41,871 bases of DNA from a virus: positions 1-41,871 of IMG/VR virus record IMGVR_UViG_3300004770_000039; one strand, written 5' to 3'. Numbering within the stretch: position 1 is the first letter of the stretch; each line of letters begins with the position of its first letter. Below the pieces are notes generated by a model, which was given only the letters and a program-made list of their open reading frames with translations, did not search any database and was not told where the DNA came from. Shown here piece by piece: positions 1 through 40,666 of the stretch. The position numbers and the translations under genes are program-made.

Positions 1-225
1 CGCTGGTTGTTCACGATTAAAATAAACTTCTTCACCATCAATGTTTAATGTGCAAGTAGAACCATCAAGTGCGTATGACACTAATCTTGGTTCTGCTGGT
101 TGCTCTAGTGCTTCTTCACACGCATTGATTGCACCTTTCACCCATGCAGTTTCATATACTCTGTTGTTGTTTAAACAATTTAAAACTTTTAATGCTTTGT
201 GTATTGCTTCGTCTTTAGAGACCAT
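1..225 (-). CDS. Hypothetical phage protein, C-terminus cut by window edge
   Basis: The reading frame starts with ATG at 225 and stays open for 75 codons to position 1, so its 3' end lies outside the window. The protein begins MVSKDEAIHKALKVLN and looks soluble, with a helical N-terminal half and a Glu/Pro-rich 'EEALEQPAEP' linker of the sort common in unannotated phage early proteins. Its start overlaps the end of the ATP-grasp gene by 11 nt, so it is the last visible member of that operon. No function is recognised. Confidence 0.7.
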   Translation of the reverse strand, partial: MVSKDEAIHKALKVLNCLNNNRVYETAWVKGAINACEEALEQPAEPRLVSYALDGSTCTLNIDGEEVYFNREQPA

Positions 226-973
226 TTAAATACTCCTTAAAAGTATTGACATATTTGTCAAAAGTTGTTCCAACAAGACCTGGAGCAGTATTGACTTCGA
301 ACACAAAGATTTTACCATCTCGTTCACGATAACCAACATCAACCGCACCGAAATCTAGACCGAGCAAATTGACAGCAGAAACCGCTGATGATAGTAGTAA
401 CTCAGGAACAGAAACCTCTACCCTAGCATAAATATAACCATTGGAATGATTACGAATGCCACTACTGGGACCAGTATAATCCAAACGTCGTTTCTTTTGT
501 TGAACATCTATAACCTTTCCTTTGAACACATGAACACGAAACTCATGTTTATGTTTAGTTTGAATTGTATACAGTGGTGCATCAACTAACTCATAACTGT
601 TAGTAGCTATTACTATACCAGAACCAGAATGACCTGTCAAGCTTGTTCGACAATATACATTATGATTAGGGTATCCTGCCCATAGATTATATATCTCATA
701 TCTACTTGCACTCCAGATAGGTAGATGAGTAAACCCTGCAGCACTTAACGTTTCAAACGTTTTAAGTTTGTTACTTGCAATAGCAATAGCTTCATGCTTA
801 TTTAAATCTAGATGTGTCCTAATATAATTAACACAGCGACTATTACCCCAATTAATAATAACATCATTTCTCCTAGGTTCATATGTATTACGGACACGCT
901 TAACTCCCAGACCGTGAGCCAAAGCCTTGGCAGACTGAGAGCCTATCTTATATGGAAAGACTTTAAAACGCAT
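215..973 (-). CDS. RimK-type ATP-grasp ligase
   Basis: This 252-residue protein looks like an ATP-grasp carboxylate-amine ligase. Such enzymes use ATP to make an acyl-phosphate and join a carboxylate to an amine or peptide. Visible features are a 'KLKTFETLSAAGF' pre-ATP-grasp segment, a glycine-rich ATP loop 'GHSGSGIVIA' near residue 112, and the metal-binding 'VFEVNTAPGL' near residue 226 with its Glu and Asn. The ATG at 973 follows an AAAGG ribosome site and overlaps the preceding gene by 11 nt. It shares an operon with an amidoligase and a class II glutamine amidotransferase, which suggests a joint peptide or metabolite modification pathway. The substrate is unknown. The ATP-grasp assignment is good; the RimK-like subtype is likely. 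Confidence 0.85.
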   Translation of the reverse strand: MRFKVFPYKIGSQSAKALAHGLGVKRVRNTYEPRRNDVIINWGNSRCVNYIRTHLDLNKHEAIAIASNKLKTFETLSAAGFTHLPIWSASRYEIYNLWAGYPNHNVYCRTSLTGHSGSGIVIATNSYELVDAPLYTIQTKHKHEFRVHVFKGKVIDVQQKKRRLDYTGPSSGIRNHSNGYIYARVEVSVPELLLSSAVSAVNLLGLDFGAVDVGYRERDGKIFVFEVNTAPGLVGTTFDKYVNTFKEYLNGL

Positions 974-1277
974 AACCTTTATCCTTTCGTTTACATTGTA
1001 ACTGTTCTATCTTACGCAACACTTTATAGTAAGGATTATTTCTATCAATATTAGATGGTTCATTTATTAACTTTAAATCTTCAATAGTAATATCCCACTC
1101 ACGAGGATGTTCTCTTGTTAGTTCTCTACCATAAGTATTACTTGATAAATAATAAAAAGAAACTGAAGCAGTTTTACGAGCTTTATTTATAGATTTTATA
1201 ATTCCTTTAGAGCCAATGGTTGTATAAAAATATTCACCACTTACTATTTCTACTTCATCACCTGTTTCAAAAGGCAT
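963..1277 (-). CDS. Small SH3/KOW-like barrel protein (copy 1)
   Basis: The 104-residue protein starts 'MPFETGDEVEIVSGEYF' and continues with alternating short beta strands, the pattern of an SH3-like or KOW barrel. Its tail 'YYKVLRKIEQLQCKRKDKG' is clearly related to the tail of the next gene upstream, so the two are tandem paralogues. Start and stop overlap the neighbouring genes by 11 nt each, which implies translational coupling. A similar domain ends the amidotransferase two genes upstream. It may be a binding or scaffolding module for the modification enzymes; that is inference from context. Confidence 0.7.
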   Translation of the reverse strand: MPFETGDEVEIVSGEYFYTTIGSKGIIKSINKARKTASVSFYYLSSNTYGRELTREHPREWDITIEDLKLINEPSNIDRNNPYYKVLRKIEQLQCKRKDKGYAF

Positions 1278-1566
1278 AGCCAGCCTCCTTACGAATAGTT
1301 TGTAATGATTTTATCTTACGAATAACTTTATAGTGTGGTACACTAGTATCATAGGCAGGCTCTAAGCAATACTCAAACCATGTCCATCCATTATCTAAAG
1401 TATAAACTAATTCTCCATTACTAATCCTATGAACAGATCGTATTATTTTAATTTTACCATCATTAATACAATTCTCCATGTCAATAGCAAAATGTAAAGC
1501 TGAAGTATCAGGAAAACTTTTTACTACTACAACTTCATCACCCATTTTAAACTTAGTAGTCGGCAT
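1267..1566 (-). CDS. Small SH3/KOW-like barrel protein (copy 2)
   Basis: The 99-residue protein begins 'MPTTKFKMGDEVVVVKSF' and reads as a small beta barrel followed by the conserved tail 'HYKVIRKIKSLQTIRKEAG'. It is a diverged tandem copy of the gene downstream. Both genes end in codons for GYAF whose last 11 nt contain the next gene's start codon, so the duplication seems to have included the overlap junction. A strong AAGGAGG ribosome site lies inside the end of the amidotransferase gene. Function unknown, probably tied to the amidoligase operon. Confidence 0.7.
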   Translation of the reverse strand: MPTTKFKMGDEVVVVKSFPDTSALHFAIDMENCINDGKIKIIRSVHRISNGELVYTLDNGWTWFEYCLEPAYDTSVPHYKVIRKIKSLQTIRKEAGYAF

Positions 1567-2410
1567 ATTCCCAACCTCCTTTAGGTTGCCATTGACCTAC
1601 AGGTTCTGGATCATCCCACAAGTCAATGTCACTGAACTTAATGTTATAAATAAACTCAGCATTGTCATTCATTAGATCAACTGAATAGTCTTTGTTAACT
1701 GCTACGATTTCCCATACTGAATTACGAGCATAAGATTTCTTAGCATCACGATCATAATGACCCCAGCTTAACGTAACGATTTCACCAACAACCATATGTT
1801 CTTTTTTGTATTGCCACGATTTAGGATAATACTTATTATTCCAACTAGATTGAACAGCTGGAACAACTGGTGCAGGCTTTTTATAACCTGCGTTTGAATA
1901 CCAAACACCGTCATCCCAGTAACCTTTATCTTCGTTGAAAATCTTTGTATTGCCTTCATTGTCCATGAAAATTAACTTACTATAACCAATACGATTCTCA
2001 ATTAGTTTCTTAATTGGATCTTGAAACAGCTCAAGGTTACCCCACTTCTGAACGAACGGTTGAATTACATCTTCATTGAACAACCAAGTATCAGATTTAT
2101 CAGCAGCATTATAGCCACTGATGATACCATTATGAACAAATGCGAACTTATCATTAACCATATAAGGGTGGCAATTATCTTTATTGATTGGACCATGAGT
2201 CTTAATCCTAAAATGAATTACACATTCTTTCTTTTGATCACGTTTGTAACTACGCCAGAAATCATCGAATGCAAAGAAACCTTTCTTAATATATAACTGA
2301 TTGTTTTTATGGAACATATAGCCAGCACCGTCAGGATTTGTATTGTAACAACGTTGCAATGTATCCTTGTCAATGATTTTAGCTTCTGGTTTATAAATAG
2401 CGATACACAT
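1553..2410 (-). CDS. Class II glutamine amidotransferase with C-terminal SH3-like domain
   Basis: This 285-residue Ntn-hydrolase-type glutaminase would release ammonia from glutamine for a partner ligase. After removal of Met1, Cys2 becomes the N-terminal nucleophile ('MCIAIYKPEA'). Other family signatures are NPDGAGY (25-31), 'HFRIKTHG' with Arg68, HPY (81-83) and 'FVHNG' (91-95). Residues about 205-267 ('MVVGEIVTLSWGHYDRD' onward) form an added beta-rich SH3-like domain resembling the two small proteins encoded next. The start codon shares one base with the amidoligase stop (TAATG), so the two are likely made together. Confidence 0.88.
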   Translation of the reverse strand: MCIAIYKPEAKIIDKDTLQRCYNTNPDGAGYMFHKNNQLYIKKGFFAFDDFWRSYKRDQKKECVIHFRIKTHGPINKDNCHPYMVNDKFAFVHNGIISGYNAADKSDTWLFNEDVIQPFVQKWGNLELFQDPIKKLIENRIGYSKLIFMDNEGNTKIFNEDKGYWDDGVWYSNAGYKKPAPVVPAVQSSWNNKYYPKSWQYKKEHMVVGEIVTLSWGHYDRDAKKSYARNSVWEIVAVNKDYSVDLMNDNAEFIYNIKFSDIDLWDDPEPVGQWQPKGGWEYADY

Positions 2411-3981
2411 TATGCAAATCCTTTCAAGTGATTTGATAGCTCTGGATAGTCTTTGTGATGAGACTTAAGCCAGTTAATAAAAGAGGAATGATGAGTCATA
2501 TGCTTGAGACTTGTTGATGATTGAGCTGGTTGACAATAGTCAGTTAATGCTTGACAAAACTCAAGACGAGATGCAAATTGTTCCCAGTTAGTTGGAGTAC
2601 TAAAGATACGGAACTCAACTGTATCAGTTGGATTTAAGTTTAAAGCATTGTAACGTTCACCACCACGTTTATTAACTAATGGATAAGTTACAGTACGATG
2701 TTTATCTTGTTGAGCATAACTATTGTCAATACGACCTGCAACATAAGCAATGAAATTCTTATTGTCAAGTCGGTTAACGAACTCAGTCATTTTACCAATT
2801 GTAAATAGATTCAATGGCTTACGACTTACATGAACGTGCATGCCAGTGTTAGAAGCAGCAAACAATTCACCAGGAAGATTGTCATAGAACTTCTTGAACT
2901 CTTCACGATGAATCTCAAGTGTTGCTGGACAAGTTACAATCTCAAAGCCATTACGAATTGAACCATCAGATTTCATAATAGCATGACCAGCTAGTTGTTT
3001 ACCAACTTTAACACGAGCTACATCTTTATCACGAGTTTCATACTCAAGCTCGATACCTAGATATAACGTACTAGGTTTTACATTTTTAGCTTTGAATTTA
3101 AGTAAGCTAGGAGCTTTGGTTGAATAGCTGTGAATCTTATAACGATTTTGTAAACAATGCCAACAAACACCATCTTCAAAGCCCTCAGCAGGAGCATCTT
3201 GATCACACTCAGGACAATGTTGCATGACTAATGCATCACGTTGATAAGCTCTACCACGATACCAGATTTCAGTGTTGTGTAACCAAATATTATTACCATT
3301 GTCTTTTGTGTAAGCTGTATAATTAAATTCTCTAGGATCTAATTTGTAATGATAATATTTATATTCATTACTAAACGGATCTCTACGTAAGAACGTTTCC
3401 ATATATAGTTTGTTAGTTAAATGACATTCATAAAGCTTTTCAATGCCATAGTTACGACGTAAATAATCTGCTACGTCTTGGTTATTAAACGTTGGATTTA
3501 AACGTTTAGTTTCTTCAATAACAGTTTGAAGAAGTTTGTCAGTAAATGTACTATATTTTACAATACGAGATTTAACTCTACGTGCAACTTCTCGATAGAT
3601 ACCTTTACGTAGTTTACCATTAAGTAAACGTAATGTAGGAGGATTGCTTAAATAATATAAGGCGTCAATTGCACCTGTTGTTGCATCATAATCACGTTTA
3701 GTTACTAAGCCTGCCATTTGCATGAGATGACGATAGTCATCAACGATACGACCTGTTCGTTTGCTCATGACAATTAAGCTAAGCCATTCTTCTTCTCGAA
3801 CACTAAATCCTTCAGCTGTTAAGCCATTAGCTACACGAGATGTTTTTACTTGTAAATCAAATACGGTATAGTTTGCACCATCCCAATTCCTACGTTGTGC
3901 TTCTACAAATCTAAAGTCAGGATGAAGATTCGGTATATTAAAATCTATCTCCATCAACTGTTTTATGTTAAACGATTTCAT
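2410..3981 (-). CDS. Amidoligase (glutamine synthetase-like fold) with zinc ribbon
   Basis: This 523-residue protein carries a C-terminal amidoligase domain of the Amidoligase_2 type, distantly related to glutamine synthetase. Such domains are predicted to form amide or isopeptide bonds. Motifs are LGIELEYE (308-315), DGS (339-341), GFEIVTCP (345-352), GMHVHVS (380-386) and RYNALNLNPTDTVEFRIF (443-460). The first 250 residues are helical and unassigned. A C-x2-C-x13-C-x2-C zinc ribbon (Cys256, 259, 273, 276) lies between the halves. The ATG at 3981 follows an AGAGGA site. It leads the operon with the amidotransferase and ATP-grasp ligase. The target, whether host surface, a host protein or a small molecule, is not visible. 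Confidence 0.88.
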   Translation of the reverse strand: MKSFNIKQLMEIDFNIPNLHPDFRFVEAQRRNWDGANYTVFDLQVKTSRVANGLTAEGFSVREEEWLSLIVMSKRTGRIVDDYRHLMQMAGLVTKRDYDATTGAIDALYYLSNPPTLRLLNGKLRKGIYREVARRVKSRIVKYSTFTDKLLQTVIEETKRLNPTFNNQDVADYLRRNYGIEKLYECHLTNKLYMETFLRRDPFSNEYKYYHYKLDPREFNYTAYTKDNGNNIWLHNTEIWYRGRAYQRDALVMQHCPECDQDAPAEGFEDGVCWHCLQNRYKIHSYSTKAPSLLKFKAKNVKPSTLYLGIELEYETRDKDVARVKVGKQLAGHAIMKSDGSIRNGFEIVTCPATLEIHREEFKKFYDNLPGELFAASNTGMHVHVSRKPLNLFTIGKMTEFVNRLDNKNFIAYVAGRIDNSYAQQDKHRTVTYPLVNKRGGERYNALNLNPTDTVEFRIFSTPTNWEQFASRLEFCQALTDYCQPAQSSTSLKHMTHHSSFINWLKSHHKDYPELSNHLKGFA

Positions 3982-17211: not shown

Positions 17212-18720
17212 ATGGCTCTTAATCAAGCAGCAATTAACATAGAGGTTATTAATGGAGTTCCTCCTGCTAAACTCTATAATCAAGCAGTAACAGCTAGTTC
17301 TACTTCTACATCAAGCTTCTTAAAAAAAGCAGGTGCTATTAGAAGTGCATTAAGTACGTCAGCAGTTAATCTAGTTAGGGGTGTAGGTAAATTAGTTACT
17401 TATACTTCTACTAGTGCTGTCTCAATACTTAGAGCTATTACTCAAACAGCAAGAACAGTAACTAGTACTTCAACAGTTTCTATAACTAAAGCAGTTAATC
17501 ATTTATTCAGTACAATTACTTCTATAAGTAGTTCTACACTAGCAAGAGTAGCTGGTAAACTAGTAGTTGCAAGTGAAAGTACCGTAAACAGCATTTCTAG
17601 AGCCGTAGGTAAGTTTGTTGTTGCCTCTGAGGTCACAGTATCAAATATTTATAAACTGTTGCCTAAGACGTATTCTGCAAGCTCAACTTCGACTGCAAAT
17701 GTTTTAAAAACTGTTGGTAAGACTTTAGTAAGTGCTATTGAATATACAGTAGCTCTTATTGCAGAAAAAGCAAATCACTTTGTTACTTTATCTTACAATA
17801 GTGTTACTACAAGTTCAATAGCAAAATTAGTTAATAAATTAATAACTGATGTAGAAGTATCAATAGCAGTTATTTTAGAAGCAGCTAATCATCTTCTAAC
17901 ATTACTAGCTTATTCAACTTCAACAGTAAATATTAGTAAAGCAGTTTCACATACTGTTACAGCAATTAGTACTTCAATTGCTAATGTGTTTAAACAAGTT
18001 CAAAAGACGTTTATTACATTAGGTAATAAGTATGTAATGACAGGTGGTTTGAATGGCTCTGTATTTAACTTATTAGCCATTAATACTGATGCCCCTGTAT
18101 ATACAGAAACTACTGGAGTAACTTCTAACACTACTATATCTGTTAATTCTGTATACCATGTCCTTATAAGTATAGTGGAAGCTACAGTAAATAGTTTAAC
18201 AGCGTTTAGAATACTTCCTAGAACGTATACAGTAGTATCTACATCAATAGTAAATCTAGTTAAACAAGCTAATAAAACTTTATATAGTTACTTAGGAAGC
18301 ACTGTGAACTTATCTTATTTTATTAATAGACTAGTAGCTTTAACAGTATCAGTAGCAAGCACTGCGTCAGTTGTGTTAGCTAAGTTCTTCTATAAAACTT
18401 TAGCAGTTCTTTCTACAACTGTAACTACTTTAACAAAAACTGCAAATAAACTTTTGTTATCTTACTCTACAAATCAAGCTACGTTAGTTAAACAAGTTGG
18501 AAAAGTATTTACTGTTGTTTTAAGTAGTATTACTTCTATCCTTACTAATTTAATTAGCTTTACTAAATATGTAAATGGTAGATTGATTTATGTAGCTAAT
18601 AGAGTTACAACTGTAGCAACTACTAAAACAAGACAACTTTATATTTCAGCAGAAGCTTTACGAAGTGTTGCTGTCACTAAGATTAGAACATTATTCATCA
18701 CTAAGGATGACATTAAATGA
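17212..18720 (+). CDS. Virion protein built of about twenty 18-residue repeats
   Basis: The 502-residue protein is almost entirely an imperfect repeat with a period of 18-20 residues from about residue 27 to 455. Representative units are 'STSAVNLVRGVGKLVTYT', 'ESTVNSISRAVGKFVVAS' and 'STSTVNISKAVSHTVTAI'. The pattern is S/T-T-S-x-V-x-x-I/L-x-K-x-V/A-G/N-K/H-x-L, with one insertion around residues 282-310. Two short strands per 18 residues fit a beta-solenoid coil. The C-terminus differs ('ANRVTTVATTKTRQLYIS'). The position among tail genes suggests an elongated virion part. No named domain is recognised. Confidence 0.75.
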   Translation: MALNQAAINIEVINGVPPAKLYNQAVTASSTSTSSFLKKAGAIRSALSTSAVNLVRGVGKLVTYTSTSAVSILRAITQTARTVTSTSTVSITKAVNHLFSTITSISSSTLARVAGKLVVASESTVNSISRAVGKFVVASEVTVSNIYKLLPKTYSASSTSTANVLKTVGKTLVSAIEYTVALIAEKANHFVTLSYNSVTTSSIAKLVNKLITDVEVSIAVILEAANHLLTLLAYSTSTVNISKAVSHTVTAISTSIANVFKQVQKTFITLGNKYVMTGGLNGSVFNLLAINTDAPVYTETTGVTSNTTISVNSVYHVLISIVEATVNSLTAFRILPRTYTVVSTSIVNLVKQANKTLYSYLGSTVNLSYFINRLVALTVSVASTASVVLAKFFYKTLAVLSTTVTTLTKTANKLLLSYSTNQATLVKQVGKVFTVVLSSITSILTNLISFTKYVNGRLIYVANRVTTVATTKTRQLYISAEALRSVAVTKIRTLFITKDDIK

Positions 18721-29000: not shown

Positions 29001-29885
29001 TATTTTGGTAGATCAGCTCTTGATATGTATGATGGTATTTCAAAAGCTTCTAATAAAGCTATGTGGATTGCTCGTGATACTATGTATATGCAATATGTTA
29101 AAGAGCTTATGAATACCAAAGGTCTTTCTCATGAAGAAGCCATTAAACATGCTGAACGTCATATGCCTAACTATCGTATACCTGAGACTGTTGGTGATAG
29201 TGTTCTAGGTGCTAAGATGGGTCGTGTATTAAGTGAGACTTTACAAAACCCTAATGTATCAGTCTTTAGTCGTTATCATTATGGTATGCTTAAATCTATT
29301 ATGGAAACTATGAAAGACGTAGGAGCTATCCGTAAAGGTGCTGAAGGTATGCAGGAGTTTAAAGAAGGTGTAGACACTCTTGCTGCTACTGTATTAGCGT
29401 TGTCAGCCTTGTACCCATTAATGGATATGCTAGCTCAACAGCTAACAGGGGATCCTAATGCTAAACAACGTAGAGCTGGTCCTTACCATTTAGCTCATGC
29501 TATCTCAGAAGTAGCAGATGGTTCTAAAGATCCACAGGCTGTTCTTAGTGCTGTGTTTACTTTTAATCCTGCACTACTTGGACTTGTACAACTAGGCTTA
29601 GATCGTAATCTTTATAACGGTCAACACATCTACAATCCTATGAGTAGTCCTGACGTTATTGCTATGGATGTAGGTAAGTATGCTGCAGGTCAAATGCCTA
29701 TGGGTAATCAGTTTATGAAAGCAGAAAACGACCAAGGAGATTCAGGCTGGGCTTCACTATTAGCTAGACAAGCTGATATTGAATCTAAAGGATCTCTTAA
29801 AGATACTAAACAAAAGAAGATGATTAACAAGCTTGAAAAAGAAGCTATGAAGTATGATATTAAACGACGTGAAGGACTCAAATGA
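26100..29885 (+). CDS. Large ejection protein with N-terminal lytic transglycosylase (gp16-like)
   Basis: The 1261-residue protein is the largest in the window. Residues about 20-140 form an SLT domain: 'KILPIEGG' with catalytic Glu26, 'AGAIGPAQVMPSTA' and 'AAAAYNAGPGAVK'. It would thin peptidoglycan during DNA entry. Next come two close 'GFVDPDA' repeats that echo the N-terminal 'MAFVDPD', a Gly-rich membrane-prone part ('GAIGMFGAGYGADKLMRAVQ'), and a long helical body. It ends one overlap (ATGA) before the PurD-like gene. Confidence 0.85.
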   Translation: MAFVDPDSYSNVQLDPDFQNKILPIEGGIDKSGKFLTSKAGAIGPAQVMPSTAKEAAEAANLPYSEHLYKTDKDYNAALGNAYYKKLVNVFKGDTEKAAAAYNAGPGAVKSILEKHGENWREHLPEETKGYVQKFVAKSKPSTGFVDPDAPTKSKGFVDPDAATTTSKPEATFRDVSAPEAFAEHTIAGIPVSAGAYAGMTGGAVLGEEVGLYLAPVTGGISTVAGPIIGGAIGMFGAGYGADKLMRAVQPKAVNDLLDQGTKQHPLAAFAGDIASYAPVSGVGIPKTIVTESGKTISAARQIALLTTGGAGLETGRELATGETIDPAKIAINALATPLMAGEPTRLGKAVTFEGIRKTESKEMLSDLQDKLHGTTYEEKLNNHIAEQQKMETFEDYKHKESIQGSLFEDPSLKKTDAQLKEEYDNRIRTRAEEAFLSEHPEVDRPNVNLAKAPTNDAEARDFFFNFAGAKTQDNIIANHILRLARKAGLSSESREKFRYYSEGANVDTPRLRFEIEDHTIDIRQIKDSISKEYTERDFSKGSSNRLKYDQLLKKENKTAEEQAFVDDHKAFLKSVAERYEKVTDLEGKIKAKEEEMKQRTQLSSEEQKIWDDYYKQSLTTLKQNLKYLMDKGLIAKTGLESDFFPRMLNPLDRQTLERLRKEGLIDEEPSLWGSIKEKLGGRDFGAQDVQMPKSAAQERALFTLESPNGRREVIHVTKNNKIIVWSEGRGRVLADDARSLTDSGTIKSGDKILGGTVKEGSIEEIEQHSPYRYNKDSLAVLLNKLNESREMVRAHAMIEDLKNTDYFKNSSHKIESGVEMPEGYVRPKYLDRLPALEGYAFPARTAWLIEDFARVRNPNLMTEMSGMIVKNMMLNPLPHIFNEAMHLYNARGLTGWVTPAGIKRFATGVPEALRSVLTQDPFYQDTLKYNGTLLAPSTRASALEEAIGRKTLNEFAQGGGLKELARYFGRSALDMYDGISKASNKAMWIARDTMYMQYVKELMNTKGLSHEEAIKHAERHMPNYRIPETVGDSVLGAKMGRVLSETLQNPNVSVFSRYHYGMLKSIMETMKDVGAIRKGAEGMQEFKEGVDTLAATVLALSALYPLMDMLAQQLTGDPNAKQRRAGPYHLAHAISEVADGSKDPQAVLSAVFTFNPALLGLVQLGLDRNLYNGQHIYNPMSSPDVIAMDVGKYAAGQMPMGNQFMKAENDQGDSGWASLLARQADIESKGSLKDTKQKKMINKLEKEAMKYDIKRREGLK

Positions 29886-31201
29886 AAGTACTCTTATTAG
29901 ATCCAGCTGGAGCATTTACTGACTTTGCTATCCGTCTTATGGATGCTGGTCATGAAGTAAAGCAATGGCAGAAGAAACACCTAGATGGTTCACAGTCTAA
30001 AATTGGTAATGGTATAGTTCCAAAGGTACTTAATTGGCAAGCCTTTATGAAATGGGCTGATATCATTGTTCTATCTGATAACGCATATCAAATGCAGTTC
30101 CTTGAGAAGTATCACAACCAAGGTTACCCTATTGTGGGTGCCTGTTTAGACTCTTCTTACTTGGAGTTACGACGTGGGCAAGGTCAGGATGTTTTAGAAG
30201 CAGCTGGTCTTGATGTAATTCCAGGTAAGGAATTTAATAACTATGCTGATGCTATTGCTTATGTTAAAGCTAATCCTAAACGTTATGTATCTAAACCAAG
30301 TGGTGATGCAGACAAAGCCCTAAGCTACGTATCTAAGTCTCCTGCAGATATGCTTTACATGCTTGAACGCTGGAAGAGTAAAGGCAAAAACAAGATGCCT
30401 TTTATCATGCAAGAGTTTGTTCCTGGCATTGAAGTAGCTGTTGGTGGTTGGATGGGTAAGCACGGCTTTTGTAAATTAAAGTGTGAGAACTTTGAATTCA
30501 AGAAACTAATGCCATCTAACTTTGGTGTTAACACAGGTGAAATGGGTACTGTTCTTAAGTATACAGAAGACTCTAAACTCTTTGATGACACTCTAGGTAA
30601 ACTAGAAGGTTACTTAAAGATGATTGGCTATGTAGGTTATGTAGACTTAGCTTTTATCATTGATGATAAGGGCTCTCCTCGCCCATTAGAATGGACTACT
30701 CGTCCAGGTTGGCCTTTGTTTAATATTCAAGCAGCTTTACATAAAGGTGATCCTATTCAATGGATGTGTGATCTACTAGAAGGTAAAGACACTCTTAAAG
30801 CCTCAGACAAGACTGCTGTAGGTCATGTAGTAGCTATTCCAGACTTTCCATTTACTAGGTCTACAGGACGAGATCCAAGTGGTTTTCCTATTTATGGTCT
30901 AGATAAATGTAAGAAAGATTCTATTCATTTATGTGAAGTAATGGCAGGGAAAGGACCCGTTTACAAAGATGGTAAGTTTAGTGAAGAACCTATGCTTGTT
31001 ACCGCTGGTGATTACGTTCTTGTTACTAGTGCAACCGCAGGTACTATTAAGGAAGCTGCAGAGAAGTCCATGGAAGTTGTCAAGAAAGTAGAAATCCCTA
31101 GTGCTATGATTGTACGTGATGACATTGGTGAACGTTTAGAAAAAGAACTTCCTATTCTAAATAGCTATGGTTATTGTACTAACTTTGACTACGGAGATTA
31201 A
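29882..31201 (+). CDS. PurD-like ATP-grasp enzyme
   Basis: The 439-residue protein resembles phosphoribosylamine-glycine ligase. An N-terminal Rossmann-like part 'MKVLLLDPAGAFTDFAIRLM' is followed by an ATP-grasp core with 'KRYVSKPSGDADKALSYVSK' and 'FIMQEFVPGIEVAVGGW', a metal-site region 'YVGYVDLAFIIDD' and 'PLEWTTRPGWPLFNIQ', and a PurD-like C-terminal part with 'AGDYVLVTSATAGTIKEAAE'. The canonical GARS substrate residues cannot be confirmed by eye. It overlaps the ejection protein gene by 4 nt, so it is made late with virion proteins, which is odd for a purine enzyme. It may modify a virion or host component. Confidence 0.8.
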   Translation: MKVLLLDPAGAFTDFAIRLMDAGHEVKQWQKKHLDGSQSKIGNGIVPKVLNWQAFMKWADIIVLSDNAYQMQFLEKYHNQGYPIVGACLDSSYLELRRGQGQDVLEAAGLDVIPGKEFNNYADAIAYVKANPKRYVSKPSGDADKALSYVSKSPADMLYMLERWKSKGKNKMPFIMQEFVPGIEVAVGGWMGKHGFCKLKCENFEFKKLMPSNFGVNTGEMGTVLKYTEDSKLFDDTLGKLEGYLKMIGYVGYVDLAFIIDDKGSPRPLEWTTRPGWPLFNIQAALHKGDPIQWMCDLLEGKDTLKASDKTAVGHVVAIPDFPFTRSTGRDPSGFPIYGLDKCKKDSIHLCEVMAGKGPVYKDGKFSEEPMLVTAGDYVLVTSATAGTIKEAAEKSMEVVKKVEIPSAMIVRDDIGERLEKELPILNSYGYCTNFDYGD

Positions 31202-37619: not shown

Positions 37620-38164
37620 TATAGAATCACATCATCTTGCATGTCATCAAAGTCTAATGAAGGAGACTTAGCTTCTTCTTTCTTCTGATCAAACACATAA
37701 GCTTCAAACTCTTTAGCTAAGGCAATGATGCTATCAGCTGGTAGTGCTGACTTTGCACCGACAGACAGAGCTCCGATTGCTGCTGACAAAGAGGATTGAC
37801 GCACAATGTACACTTGACGTGCTGCTCGTTCTTCTTTTGTTTCGTAGTTAGATCCTGTAACTCGTCCTGTACTTGCTGCATTAGTTGTTGGAGCTTTTTC
37901 TTGTACGGCTCCGCCTCCGTCTGCTCCGATTGCTGTCCATTGCCAGTAACCATTGTCATCCTTTGTTGTTGTTACATTTACTTGATCACCCTTTGTTAGA
38001 CCCTTAATGTGATTGAACACACTTGGATTACTAAACGACATTAACTTTTTAGTAGCTGTTTGACCGTTGTCACCTTTGTATGTGACTTCGATTGACTGGT
38101 AACTGCGACCATTCTTAGCTGCGTGAGTATTAGGTGTACCTACATCAATAATATTAATTAGCAT
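37619..38164 (-). CDS. Single-stranded DNA-binding protein
   Basis: The 181-residue protein has an OB-fold-like N-terminal 90 residues ('GRSYQSIEVTYKGDNGQTAT', 'GDQVNVTTTKDDNGYWQWTA'), a Thr/Ala/Ser linker, a helix and an acidic tail 'LDFDDMQDDVIL' typical of SSB partner-recruiting tips. Its place between polymerase and exonuclease genes supports a replication role. The start overlaps the polymerase stop by 11 nt. Confidence 0.8.
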   Translation of the reverse strand: MLINIIDVGTPNTHAAKNGRSYQSIEVTYKGDNGQTATKKLMSFSNPSVFNHIKGLTKGDQVNVTTTKDDNGYWQWTAIGADGGGAVQEKAPTTNAASTGRVTGSNYETKEERAARQVYIVRQSSLSAAIGALSVGAKSALPADSIIALAKEFEAYVFDQKKEEAKSPSLDFDDMQDDVIL

Positions 38165-38872
38165 TAACTATCTCCATATTGCCCCAATTAGGTCCAACTT
38201 GACATTCAACCCGCATAGGTAGATTAAATTTAACTCCGAACAACTTCTCAAAGTTAGCTGGTATATCAGTGAAACACTTATCAACTAATTTAACCATACT
38301 TATATTATCGCATACTTGATCATCTATGTCAAGGATAATAGAATCGTGTACGGTATTAATTAGTTTTACTCCTTGTACTCCTTTAAGTCTGTTGGATAAG
38401 CTAACTCGTGCGATGGACATGAGGTCCGCTCCAAGCCCTTGTACAGGGTAGTTAAGGATTTTGGTCCTGGGCCACTTGACTTTTCCATAGGCAACTTCTG
38501 GTTCGTAGTTGTAGATGCGGCCTGTTGGCATAATGAGCTTTCGATCTTTTTTAACTTGGTCGACAATCTTTGTATGCCATTTGCCAAGCCCATCGTATTT
38601 ACTATAGAACTCTCCAATGACTCGCTCCCAGAATTGTTCTCCGCCAATGTCTTTAAAGTTAGGATCATTAGCATAAGAGTATGCAGATCCTCCGTAGATA
38701 AGACGGAATACGAACGTTTTAGCAACGAGTCTACTTGGTAGACCAAACCGCTTTTGGTTGTCTGTGTGTTGATCGACATTGTCCCATATCTCCTTAATAG
38801 CTGTTTGATCTTGACTTAAGAAGGTAGCACATACCCACTCAAGTGCTTTGCGTCTGCTTGTATTAATGACAT
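38154..38872 (-). CDS. polA: DNA polymerase I, C-terminal fragment (separately started, apparent frameshift)
   Basis: This piece holds the rest of a family A polymerase. ATG at 38872 follows AAGGAGG and reads 'MSLIQADAK', which is motif A with its catalytic Asp. Then the frame is lost: the continuation 'ALEWVCATFLSQDQ' lies in the -1 frame, and one more A in the run at 38847-38849 would restore it. After that come the O-helix 'RLVAKTFVFRLIYGGSAYSY' (motif B) and 'INTVHDSIILDI' (motif C). Repaired length is 239 residues. Either the base is a sequencing error, or a programmed slip is used, or the gene is damaged. Confidence 0.82.
38304..38332 (-). promoter_or_regulatory. Internal leftward sigma70 promoter
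   Basis: Minus strand TTGACA (38332-38327), 17-bp spacer, GATAAT (38309-38304). It lies within the polymerase C-terminal fragment and would drive the ssDNA-binding, exonuclease and endonuclease genes. Confidence 0.65.
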
Positions 38873-38876
38873 TTAG

Positions 38877-39305
38877 CTACCCTCCTTCAAGGACTGAATT
38901 ACAAAATTGAATGAGTTCTTCCTTAGTAGAATCCCATTTCATACTATTTGCTAAGGAACTAATAACCCTAATATTATCTTTAGTATAACCTTTACTTGGA
39001 TCTATTCTATCAATAGAAGGTCTATATCTTTTAGATGTCATAGGTTGTTTCATAATAGGACATAAGTCAGGAATAATAATATCACTTTCAACTAAAGAAA
39101 ATTCTAAACCTTTTTTAATTGCTCTAGCTTTAGCATATTTTAATAGGTATTTAATATTGTTTTCATTTTTAGTTTTATGGTAATACTCTCGTCCTAGTTT
39201 TTGTTTATGTTCTTTATTAGTTTCTCTCCATTTTTTATTAGCAGCTAGATCTCTTTCTTTATTTTTAAGATAGTCTGCCCTACGTTTGTTGGAATCATAT
39301 GCCAT
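38877..39305 (-). CDS. HNH homing endonuclease inserted in the polymerase gene
   Basis: The 142-residue protein has a basic helical DNA-binding start ('RADYLKNKERDLAANKKWRE') and an HNH core: 'PDLCPIMKQPM', 'SIDRIDPSKGYTKDNIRVIS' and 'LANSMKWDSTKEEL'. Free-standing HNH enzymes of this type cut intact copies of the target gene and spread by repair. It lies exactly where the polymerase is interrupted and has its own promoter. Its end provides the ribosome site for the polymerase C-terminal fragment. Confidence 0.9.
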   Translation of the reverse strand: MAYDSNKRRADYLKNKERDLAANKKWRETNKEHKQKLGREYYHKTKNENNIKYLLKYAKARAIKKGLEFSLVESDIIIPDLCPIMKQPMTSKRYRPSIDRIDPSKGYTKDNIRVISSLANSMKWDSTKEELIQFCNSVLEGG

Positions 39306-39334
39306 ATGTATACCCTTTCTTAGTATATGTATAT

Positions 39335-39363
39335 ATTATAACATACAATTCCATTCTTGTTAA
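39335..39363 (-). promoter_or_regulatory. Promoter of the homing endonuclease
   Basis: Minus strand TTAACA (39363-39358), 17-bp spacer, TATAAT (39340-39335). The start point is about 20 nt before the HNH ATG. It would also transcribe the polymerase C-terminal fragment. Confidence 0.68.
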
Positions 39364-39513
39364 CTATTTCTTGCCTGCAATAAGCTCATTTACATCCTCA
39401 ATCTGTTCTTGTAATTTAATGTTGTTAAACTTTTCTTCTGCACTGTACTCATCAAACTCACGTGCATAGTCTAAATCTGTTTGACCGTATACATCATTAA
39501 ATTCTTTAGCCAT
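39364..39513 (-). CDS. Small acidic protein in the polymerase interruption
   Basis: A 49-residue frame starting MAKEFNDVYGQTDLDYAREF after a GGGAG site that lies in the last codons of the polymerase N-terminal piece (8-nt overlap). It is acidic and helical ('EEKFNNIKLQEQIEDVNELI'). It may have come with the homing endonuclease or been a neighbouring phage gene. Function unknown. Confidence 0.55.
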   Translation of the reverse strand: MAKEFNDVYGQTDLDYAREFDEYSAEEKFNNIKLQEQIEDVNELIAGKK

Positions 39514-40666
39514 ATCTACTCCCGAATAATTGTTTAATTTCGCCATCAAAGTTTTGTAAGTTTGGTTTGCTTGAACTAAGTCTACCTGTTCGAGCCACAC
39601 ATTGGTTAAGGACTCCGTGTAATTTTCCTTCACTCCATTTCATCTCCTTTCTTAACTTAACTAAACCAACATAATAAGCAGTAAGTCTTTTCTCTAGAAC
39701 AGCTCTGTGTAATAATAACTCAATTAGTTCTTTAACTTTCTTACTGCCTTTTAAGTTCTTTAATGTTTGATCATCTGTTCGATAGTAACCTTCCTTCTCT
39801 AACTCAGATCCTTTAAGTGGTGTAACCATCTTAGGATAATCAAATGAATATTCTATCCACCTTTCTTTGGGCTCACCAGCTCTAGCCCCCGTTTTAAATA
39901 CACCAACAACTTCTTTACGCTTAATCTTAATAGTCCCACCGTATAGTAAAGTACTAAGGTGCTCACCGCTACTAGGGTTGAACTCAGGAAGATTATGATA
40001 GCTATACATAAGCTCATCCAGCCTACGAACGTCTGCTTCAAGTTCGATGCCCAGGCGCACACACTCTGCTTCATTGAATAGAATGCCATTGTATTCCATC
40101 TCCTCTAATACCATTAAGTCTTGATTATGTAAACTGATCAGCCGTTGTAATTGTGGGCTTGATGCTTTTACTTCTTCAAGTTGTTTAAGATACACTTGAT
40201 GAGTTAACTCTAAATCTTTTTGTAGATAGTCTCTAAGTATATCTTCTGGAACGTCTGGTGTATCTATCCCGTTCTTCCAATACTCAGTGCTAACCACATC
40301 AAGCTTGCTATCCAAACCGTAGTGAGCAGCCACCCCATTGAGACTAGGATACGACTGGGACTGCCCAGTAAGAATAAAATGTACAAGCTGGCAATCCCAT
40401 ACACGCTTAGTGCTATAATGAATTCCATATCTTCTTATCCAATGCAAATCAAATTTAAGATTAAAGCCAATGATTAGTTCGCAAGCATCAACGCTAGCCT
40501 GAACATCAGCAAGAACATTACCATAAGGCTCAGAGCCATACTCAATGCTATGAAGAACAGAAACGTTACCATCATAGCATCCCACATAACACAACTTATT
40601 TGTTTCATCAAAGGGATTACCTTTGTTGCTAATAGTTGTTTCAACATCTAGTACCAACCCTTTCAT
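39506..40666 (-). CDS. polA: DNA polymerase I, N-terminal fragment (3'-5' exonuclease and thumb)
   Basis: The 386-residue protein has the proofreading exonuclease motifs: Asp7 and Glu9 in 'LVLDVETTIS', Asp73 in 'IIGFNLKFDLHW', and 'DYLQKDLELT' (Tyr147, Asp151). Then come the thumb and the start of the palm, 'ARTGRLSSSKPNLQNFDGEI'. It stops at 'LFGSRYG', a few residues before motif A would begin. The missing part follows downstream after the HNH gene. The ATG at 40666 has AAGGA upstream. The two pieces may associate to give an active enzyme, as in known split phage polymerases. Confidence 0.9.
   Translation of the reverse strand: MKGLVLDVETTISNKGNPFDETNKLCYVGCYDGNVSVLHSIEYGSEPYGNVLADVQASVDACELIIGFNLKFDLHWIRRYGIHYSTKRVWDCQLVHFILTGQSQSYPSLNGVAAHYGLDSKLDVVSTEYWKNGIDTPDVPEDILRDYLQKDLELTHQVYLKQLEEVKASSPQLQRLISLHNQDLMVLEEMEYNGILFNEAECVRLGIELEADVRRLDELMYSYHNLPEFNPSSGEHLSTLLYGGTIKIKRKEVVGVFKTGARAGEPKERWIEYSFDYPKMVTPLKGSELEKEGYYRTDDQTLKNLKGSKKVKELIELLLHRAVLEKRLTAYYVGLVKLRKEMKWSEGKLHGVLNQCVARTGRLSSSKPNLQNFDGEIKQLFGSRYG

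Follow-up and report, generated by a model that had tools for sequence, protein, structure and literature searches.

Results

A frame break in a split DNA polymerase gene

The 41,871-bp virus contig analyzed here (IMG/VR record IMGVR_UViG_3300004770_000039; hereafter the window) encodes a family A DNA polymerase as two separate pieces, N-terminal (N) and C-terminal (C), with an HNH homing-type endonuclease gene between them, the whole locus lying on the minus strand (Table 1). Our reading, to which we give a probability of about 0.74, is that an HNH cassette has entered an ancestrally split polymerase, and that the C subunit is made by recoding within motif A. The original prediction, made from the sequence of the window alone, was of a polymerase divided directly at motif A with such a gene in the gap, and this is supported. 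It had taken the C piece for an ordinary open reading frame (ORF) with its own start, however, and overlooked a frame break; expression of motif A would need a −1 recoding event. A cassette with obligatory recoding at motif A is well supported by comparison with relatives, and would be a new variant of the type known from phage T4.

The N piece, which ends as originally described, matches positions 52–132 of Pfam DNA_pol_A and 671–1003 of phrog_17, and the C piece in its −1 frame matches DNA_pol_A 168–380. The two ORFs thus cover the N and C parts of DNA_pol_A in the manner of the split polymerase of phage MEP401, and the cut falls just before motif A, as in most relatives that lack the HNH gene. 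Between the pieces are the 49-codon ORF, promoter and HNH gene that the first reading had listed. Searches of Pfam and PHROG gave no match for the 49-codon ORF; in the HNH-free relatives L003–L013 (loci of relatives are given by number) its counterparts are small ORFs lying between N and C. The whole record was searched for a second, intact polymerase gene, the presence of which would have spoken against the prediction, and it contains no other family A polymerase.

A restart of the C piece from its own ribosome site and ATG had also been proposed, and both signals are present. The continuation in frame from MSLIQADAK is not: translated from the ATG at 38872, the frame gives MSLIQADAKHLSGYVLPS, 18 codons, before a stop. 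From 38876 onwards the −1 frame is open, with no ATG, GTG or TTG start ahead of the conserved region, and its direct reading is SRRKALEW, in which the motif A aspartate (Asp) is missing. One −1 slip at GAC GCA AAG (AAG to AAA) gives MSLIQADAK-ALEWVCATFL, in a register identical to that of the HNH-free relatives. The identical −1 break is found in two further metagenome contigs, L008 and L014, and A_AAG is a documented −1 shift site (PMC5009743).

Table 1. Features of the polymerase locus in the window (aa, amino acids; a slash marks the cut end of the vestige).
Feature	Position	Strand	Remarks
DNA polymerase A, N-terminal fragment	39506..40666	-	386 aa; exonuclease/thumb part; ends FGSRYG, stop
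49-codon ORF	39364..39513	-	Overlaps end of N fragment
Vestige of original C-gene start	39360..39389	-	ATG AGC TTA TTG CAG GC; MSLLQA/RNS, stop; left cassette boundary at motif A Asp codon
Promoter-like TTAACA-17 bp-TATAAT	39335..39363	-	Sigma70-like; ahead of HNH gene
HNH/endonuclease VII-like homing endonuclease gene	38877..39305	-	142 aa; phrog_3322 (E 8e-29), phrog_1035
Shine-Dalgarno GAAGGAGGG	38880..38888	-	Encoded by last HNH codons (LEGG)
Zero-frame C-gene start from cassette	38816..38872	-	MSLIQADAKHLSGYVLPS, stop; contains motif A Asp (38854-38852)
Proposed −1 shift site GCA_AAG_CA	38844..38851	-	A_AAG type; Lys codon 38848-38846; resumption at GCA 38846
DNA polymerase A, C-terminal fragment, −1 frame	38154..38846	-	ALEWVCATFL...VNAN, stop; 230 aa; palm/fingers, motifs B and C

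Anatomy of the HNH cassette

The HNH protein also matches phrog_3118; Pfam gave no match, and a PDB sequence search found no solved structure for the family. Genes 48–85% identical to it occupy the same site in other phages, and the occupancy is of the homing type, with the site filled in the window, L008 and L014 and empty in the near relatives L003, L004 and L013. The L008 version of the promoter is TTGACA-17-TATAAT. Upstream of the HNH gene, most loci that carry it retain a vestigial C-gene start, cut within or near the Asp codon: MSLIQA/ETS and a stop in both L008 and L014, MILNCDA/T in L083, MLIQCD/S and a stop in L085, MLVNADV/G in L088 and MLVNCDA/RS in L316. To the right of the HNH gene come another start and a repeat of the beginning of motif A, and after DAK or DAKxL an indel follows. 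The cassette is a later insertion that interrupts the C gene at the catalytic Asp codon. The cassette start is TTG or GTG in several relatives, where it overlaps the stop codon of the HNH gene. The last codons of the HNH gene (EGG, KEG or QGG) also serve as the Shine-Dalgarno sequence for the downstream polymerase piece, as at 38888-38880 in the window.

The split is older than the cassette

Fetching 80 close relatives of the C piece showed that in nearly all of them N and C are separate genes, cut at the same loop. HNH-free junctions are an ATG overlap (gap 40), a TAATG (gap 47) or spacers of mostly 74–173 nucleotides (nt), with or without a small ORF; about 130 HNH-free relatives are nearly all cut at one place, and in them the motif A Asp is invariant. 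The isolates MEP401 and MEP402 and Alcaligenes phage QDWS535 are also split. The split polymerase itself is therefore real and already known, having been published for MEP401/402 with the suggestion of an intron (PMC10580990). Distant relatives (most of L297–L314, 36–40% identity) have intact genes reading ...VFVSRFNGGKILEADFAQLEFR. Because relatives without the HNH gene have the cut at the same point, this gene did not create the split, contrary to the original proposal of a homing endonuclease as its cause.

Frame breaks accompany the HNH family

Broken loci were examined individually, and in 18 of 18 a single slip or hop gives a gap-free match of motif A to HNH-free homologues. The indel is −1 in the window, L008 and L014; +1 in L166, where no HNH gene is left; +2 in L083 and L316; +4 in L084, L168, L170 and L395; +6 in L169, L088, L172, L085 and L281; +7 in L283, which has a different HNH type in the gap; and +8 in L171 and L086. 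Seven loci have a stop as the next zero-frame codon (L083, L316, L169, L088, L172, L085 and L281). The take-off and landing codons share their first two bases in most broken loci, either flanking a stop (CTG TAA CTG in L169, CTT TAG CTA in L172, CTT TAG CTC in L088) or in other arrangements (CTT N CTT in L084 and L168, CTC/CTA in L316, CTT/CTC in L171, CAA/CAG in L086). The sister cassettes L168 and L169 have different breaks with matched codons in each. Compared with the recoding site of T4 39-mobA-60, the full configuration is present in L088, L169, L172 and L316, part of it in L084, L168, L086 and L171, and it is lacking in L085, L281 and L083; the site in the window is a −1 slip from AAG to AAA.

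The association was counted over 156 unique loci. With a member of the HNH family in the gap, 15 loci are broken and 2 intact (n = 17), and with no nuclease detected 132 are intact and 3 scored broken, one of these (L012) being a contig edge. With L012 set aside, breaks occur in 15/17 against 2/134 loci (Fisher p = 1e-16). The relatives are not independent, and we therefore used a tree of the C piece (FastTree, with several long branches), on which the broken state changes 15 times. In 7 independent well-supported pairs, the HNH gene and the break go together in 6.6 on average (sign test, median p = 0.016). The window shares the anatomy of a homing endonuclease cassette with recoding, in that the target is split, the endonuclease gene lies between the pieces, and the second piece has an early frame break. 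A scan of genome contigs yielded just six loci, none with a new cassette.

Not every nuclease at this site breaks the frame, because HNH_3-type genes lie between N and C in L247, L254 and L284 with the motif A frame intact. In L283 (1580-2141) an AP2-like HNH type lies between the pieces and motif A is broken too, which suggests a second origin of the same arrangement. The break is kept with no detectable HNH gene in L281 (3880-4001; CTT TAG CCC GAA) and in L166 (4300-4394, MW202697; GCAAAAAGC, +1), as if the nuclease had been lost and the recoding site left behind.

Selection and RNA structure

The ratio of nonsynonymous to synonymous substitution rates (dN/dS) of the C frame among HNH-containing lineages is 0.11–0.13 in most pairs, and 0.09–0.16 in HNH-free controls. 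The C frame is thus under purifying selection in the HNH-containing lineages, and is therefore translated and useful.

The 50 nt before the shift fold more stably in the cassettes than does the corresponding stretch in 117 HNH-free loci (mean z −1.29 vs 0.31, p = 2e-8). Most hop-type loci have a hairpin in which the start-codon region pairs with a segment whose end is the take-off codon (combined p = 3e-9); it is seen in 8–9 lineages, and is strongest in L171, L086, L281, L088 and L085. In six alignable loci an 8-bp stem shows compensatory changes at 5/8 pairs, with a covariation of 0.442 vs at most 0.22 when the partner is slid. U-G pairs in the stem weakly favor RNA over a DNA cruciform.

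Other features of the window

On the minus strand at 215-3981 there is a cluster of ATP-grasp-like, class II glutamine amidotransferase-like and Amidoligase_2 proteins, the last from a Pfam match for the ORF at 2413-3981. The cluster resembles a set for modifying peptides or the cell wall; a further ATP-grasp-like ORF is at 29882-31201. The ORF at 17212-18720 encodes 502 aa of degenerate repeats rich in Ser, Thr and Val (STSTVNILK...).

Discussion

Proposed mechanism

In the window, ribosomes would initiate at the replacement ATG, read MSLIQADAK, and slip back one base on A_AAG, with tRNA-Lys moving from AAG to AAA, before continuing with ALEWVCATFL. The predicted product is a C subunit of 239 aa in which motif A is intact and which would assemble with the N subunit. 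The relatives would use a forward slip or hop of 1–8 nt, usually from Leu to Leu codon and often across a stop: after 8–11 codons the peptidyl-tRNA would release and re-pair on a near or identical codon, and in the hop types forward movement of the mRNA may be driven by the hairpin as it folds again behind the ribosome. A nascent-peptide signal like that of T4 was considered and rejected because just 8–11 codons precede the shift. The frame break may persist because the start copied with the cassette would otherwise re-create the HNH target, the indel rendering that target uncleavable; the same logic was proposed for the T4 gene 60 bypass. We lean towards the broader view that HNH cassettes have repeatedly built short bypass sites into motif A, including natural stop-hops (CTG TAA CTG, CTT TAG CTA) and hairpin-driven hops of 1–8 nt. 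The −1 slip in the window would then be one among several ways to prevent cleavage of the copied target without giving up production of the enzyme.

Several observations weigh against recoding as the explanation. The landing codons are imperfect in L085 and L281 (CTT to CCC) and in L083 (CTT to TTA), and the matched Leu codons elsewhere could be partly a by-product of the junction duplicating a Leu codon. L111 and L318 carry the HNH gene and keep an intact frame; in L111 the HNH gene lies ahead of the C start. The upstream hairpin was looked for and is absent from the window group and from L168–L170. The window has a 3' hairpin (−12 kcal/mol), but it begins only ~2 nt after the slip codon, and a downstream hairpin is equally present in most of the HNH-free relatives checked and so is not special to the loci with HNH genes. 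Shifting at A_AAG is usually inefficient, and the site in the window is the least spectacular type. Separately, L111 (6100-6770) has a second insert with another HNH-like ORF, which interrupts the C piece after VFRKLL and may be an intron.

Alternative explanations

The least improbable alternative, albeit an unlikely one, is that HNH insertion killed motif A and that the phage relies on a host polymerase. No start codon yields an in-frame motif A, as this would predict, but the dN/dS values of the cassette lineages are the same as those of controls, the gene is the only family A polymerase in the record, and the break recurs in many lineages and is always correctable by one small shift. The Asp of motif A is needed for catalysis in family A polymerases. 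This requirement, together with the invariance of the residue in HNH-free relatives, makes it very unlikely that translation of the C subunit begins at an unusual codon such as ATT in the open −1 frame, with the Asp dispensable or supplied by a separate short peptide; moreover, several relatives have no start of any kind between the stop and the conserved block.

A self-splicing intron joining the pieces at the RNA level, as suggested in print for MEP401/402, draws some support from group I introns with HNH genes being frequent in phage DNA polymerases, a statement cited in PMC10580990. It is nevertheless highly improbable here. Using cmscan against Rfam at both gathering and loose thresholds, we found no group I or II intron match in the window or in ten cassette loci. 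Just ~125 nt of non-coding sequence surround the HNH gene, joining the left vestige to the right copy leaves an indel or stop or loses the Asp codon, so that the frame is not restored, and the genes overlap or touch in HNH-free relatives. A plain division by the HNH gene into two ordinary ORFs, the second from ATG 38872, has in its favor the Shine-Dalgarno sequence and ATG and the precedent of split polymerases and reductases with such genes (PMC2988022). It is scarcely credible given that the ATG frame ends after 18 codons, which already refutes it for the reading frame, and that HNH-free relatives are already split. Loss of one base through an assembly or sequencing error is just as improbable: the break adjoins a short A run, but the same break is present in three independent contigs (the window, L008 and L014), all with the HNH gene, and other full-cassette lineages have different breaks at the same spot, with none in the 132 HNH-free loci.

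Relation to known systems

Recoding at motif A would most closely resemble T4 39-mobA-60, where a topoisomerase gene has been divided by a homing endonuclease and its downstream part contains a 50-nt bypass thought to be protective against the nuclease (PMC5009743, PMC2988022). In both, an essential replication gene is in two parts with an HNH-type gene between them and a recoding site, here a proposed one, soon after the second start; in several of our relatives, moreover, the take-off codon is directly followed by a stop and matches the landing codon, and a protective insert has been proposed. They differ in that the gene here is DNA polymerase A, the gap is −1 to +8 nt rather than 50, 8–11 codons with no long nascent peptide precede the shift, the shift sites vary by lineage, the window has a −1 site and not a hop, and the split predates the HNH insertion. 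The OM43 phages MEP401 and MEP402 (PMC10580990) have the same polymerase family (53% identity to the window in N, 66–67% in C), cut site and small ORF between the pieces, but neither HNH cassette nor frame break (L164).

Other HNH genes also target family A polymerase genes. I-HmuI and I-HmuII (SPO1, SP82) and I-BasI (Bastille) lie in group I introns that splice out, as cited in PMC10580990 and PMC2988022, whereas the window has no detectable intron. Salmonella phage Vi06 has an HNH ORF in gene 5, albeit with only a weak HNH match and with gene 5 annotated as joined. In Aeromonas phage 25 (gene 43) and phage Aeh1 (nrdA), two polypeptides with a homing endonuclease nearby have been shown to assemble (PMC2988022), although these are a family B polymerase and a reductase, and no recoding site is described there. 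The C_GCA_AAG of the window resembles the G_CGA_AAG of IS1222, which is in a transposase gene (PMC5009743). CTT TAG CTA and CTG TAA CTG in the relatives resemble the stop-hops demonstrated with synthetic reporter genes, in which matching codons flank the stop and for which a natural in-frame case was unknown by 2016 (PMC5009743).

Searches of the open-access literature turned up no account of recoding in a split phage polymerase. To our knowledge, very few natural cases of translational bypassing have been described, namely T4 gene 60 and the yeast mitochondrial byps. The loci described here would add a family of independent, short and differently built bypass candidates in an essential gene, most of them beside a selfish gene that would explain them. 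The frame break also accounts for the truncation or loss of the catalytic motif when polymerases of this kind are annotated, as in MW202697 (L166), where the annotated C gene begins downstream of motif A. Two questions thereby become directly testable: do recoding sites arise as a side effect when homing endonucleases protect the copy they carry, and which mRNA features are the minimum for hopping by a bacterial ribosome?

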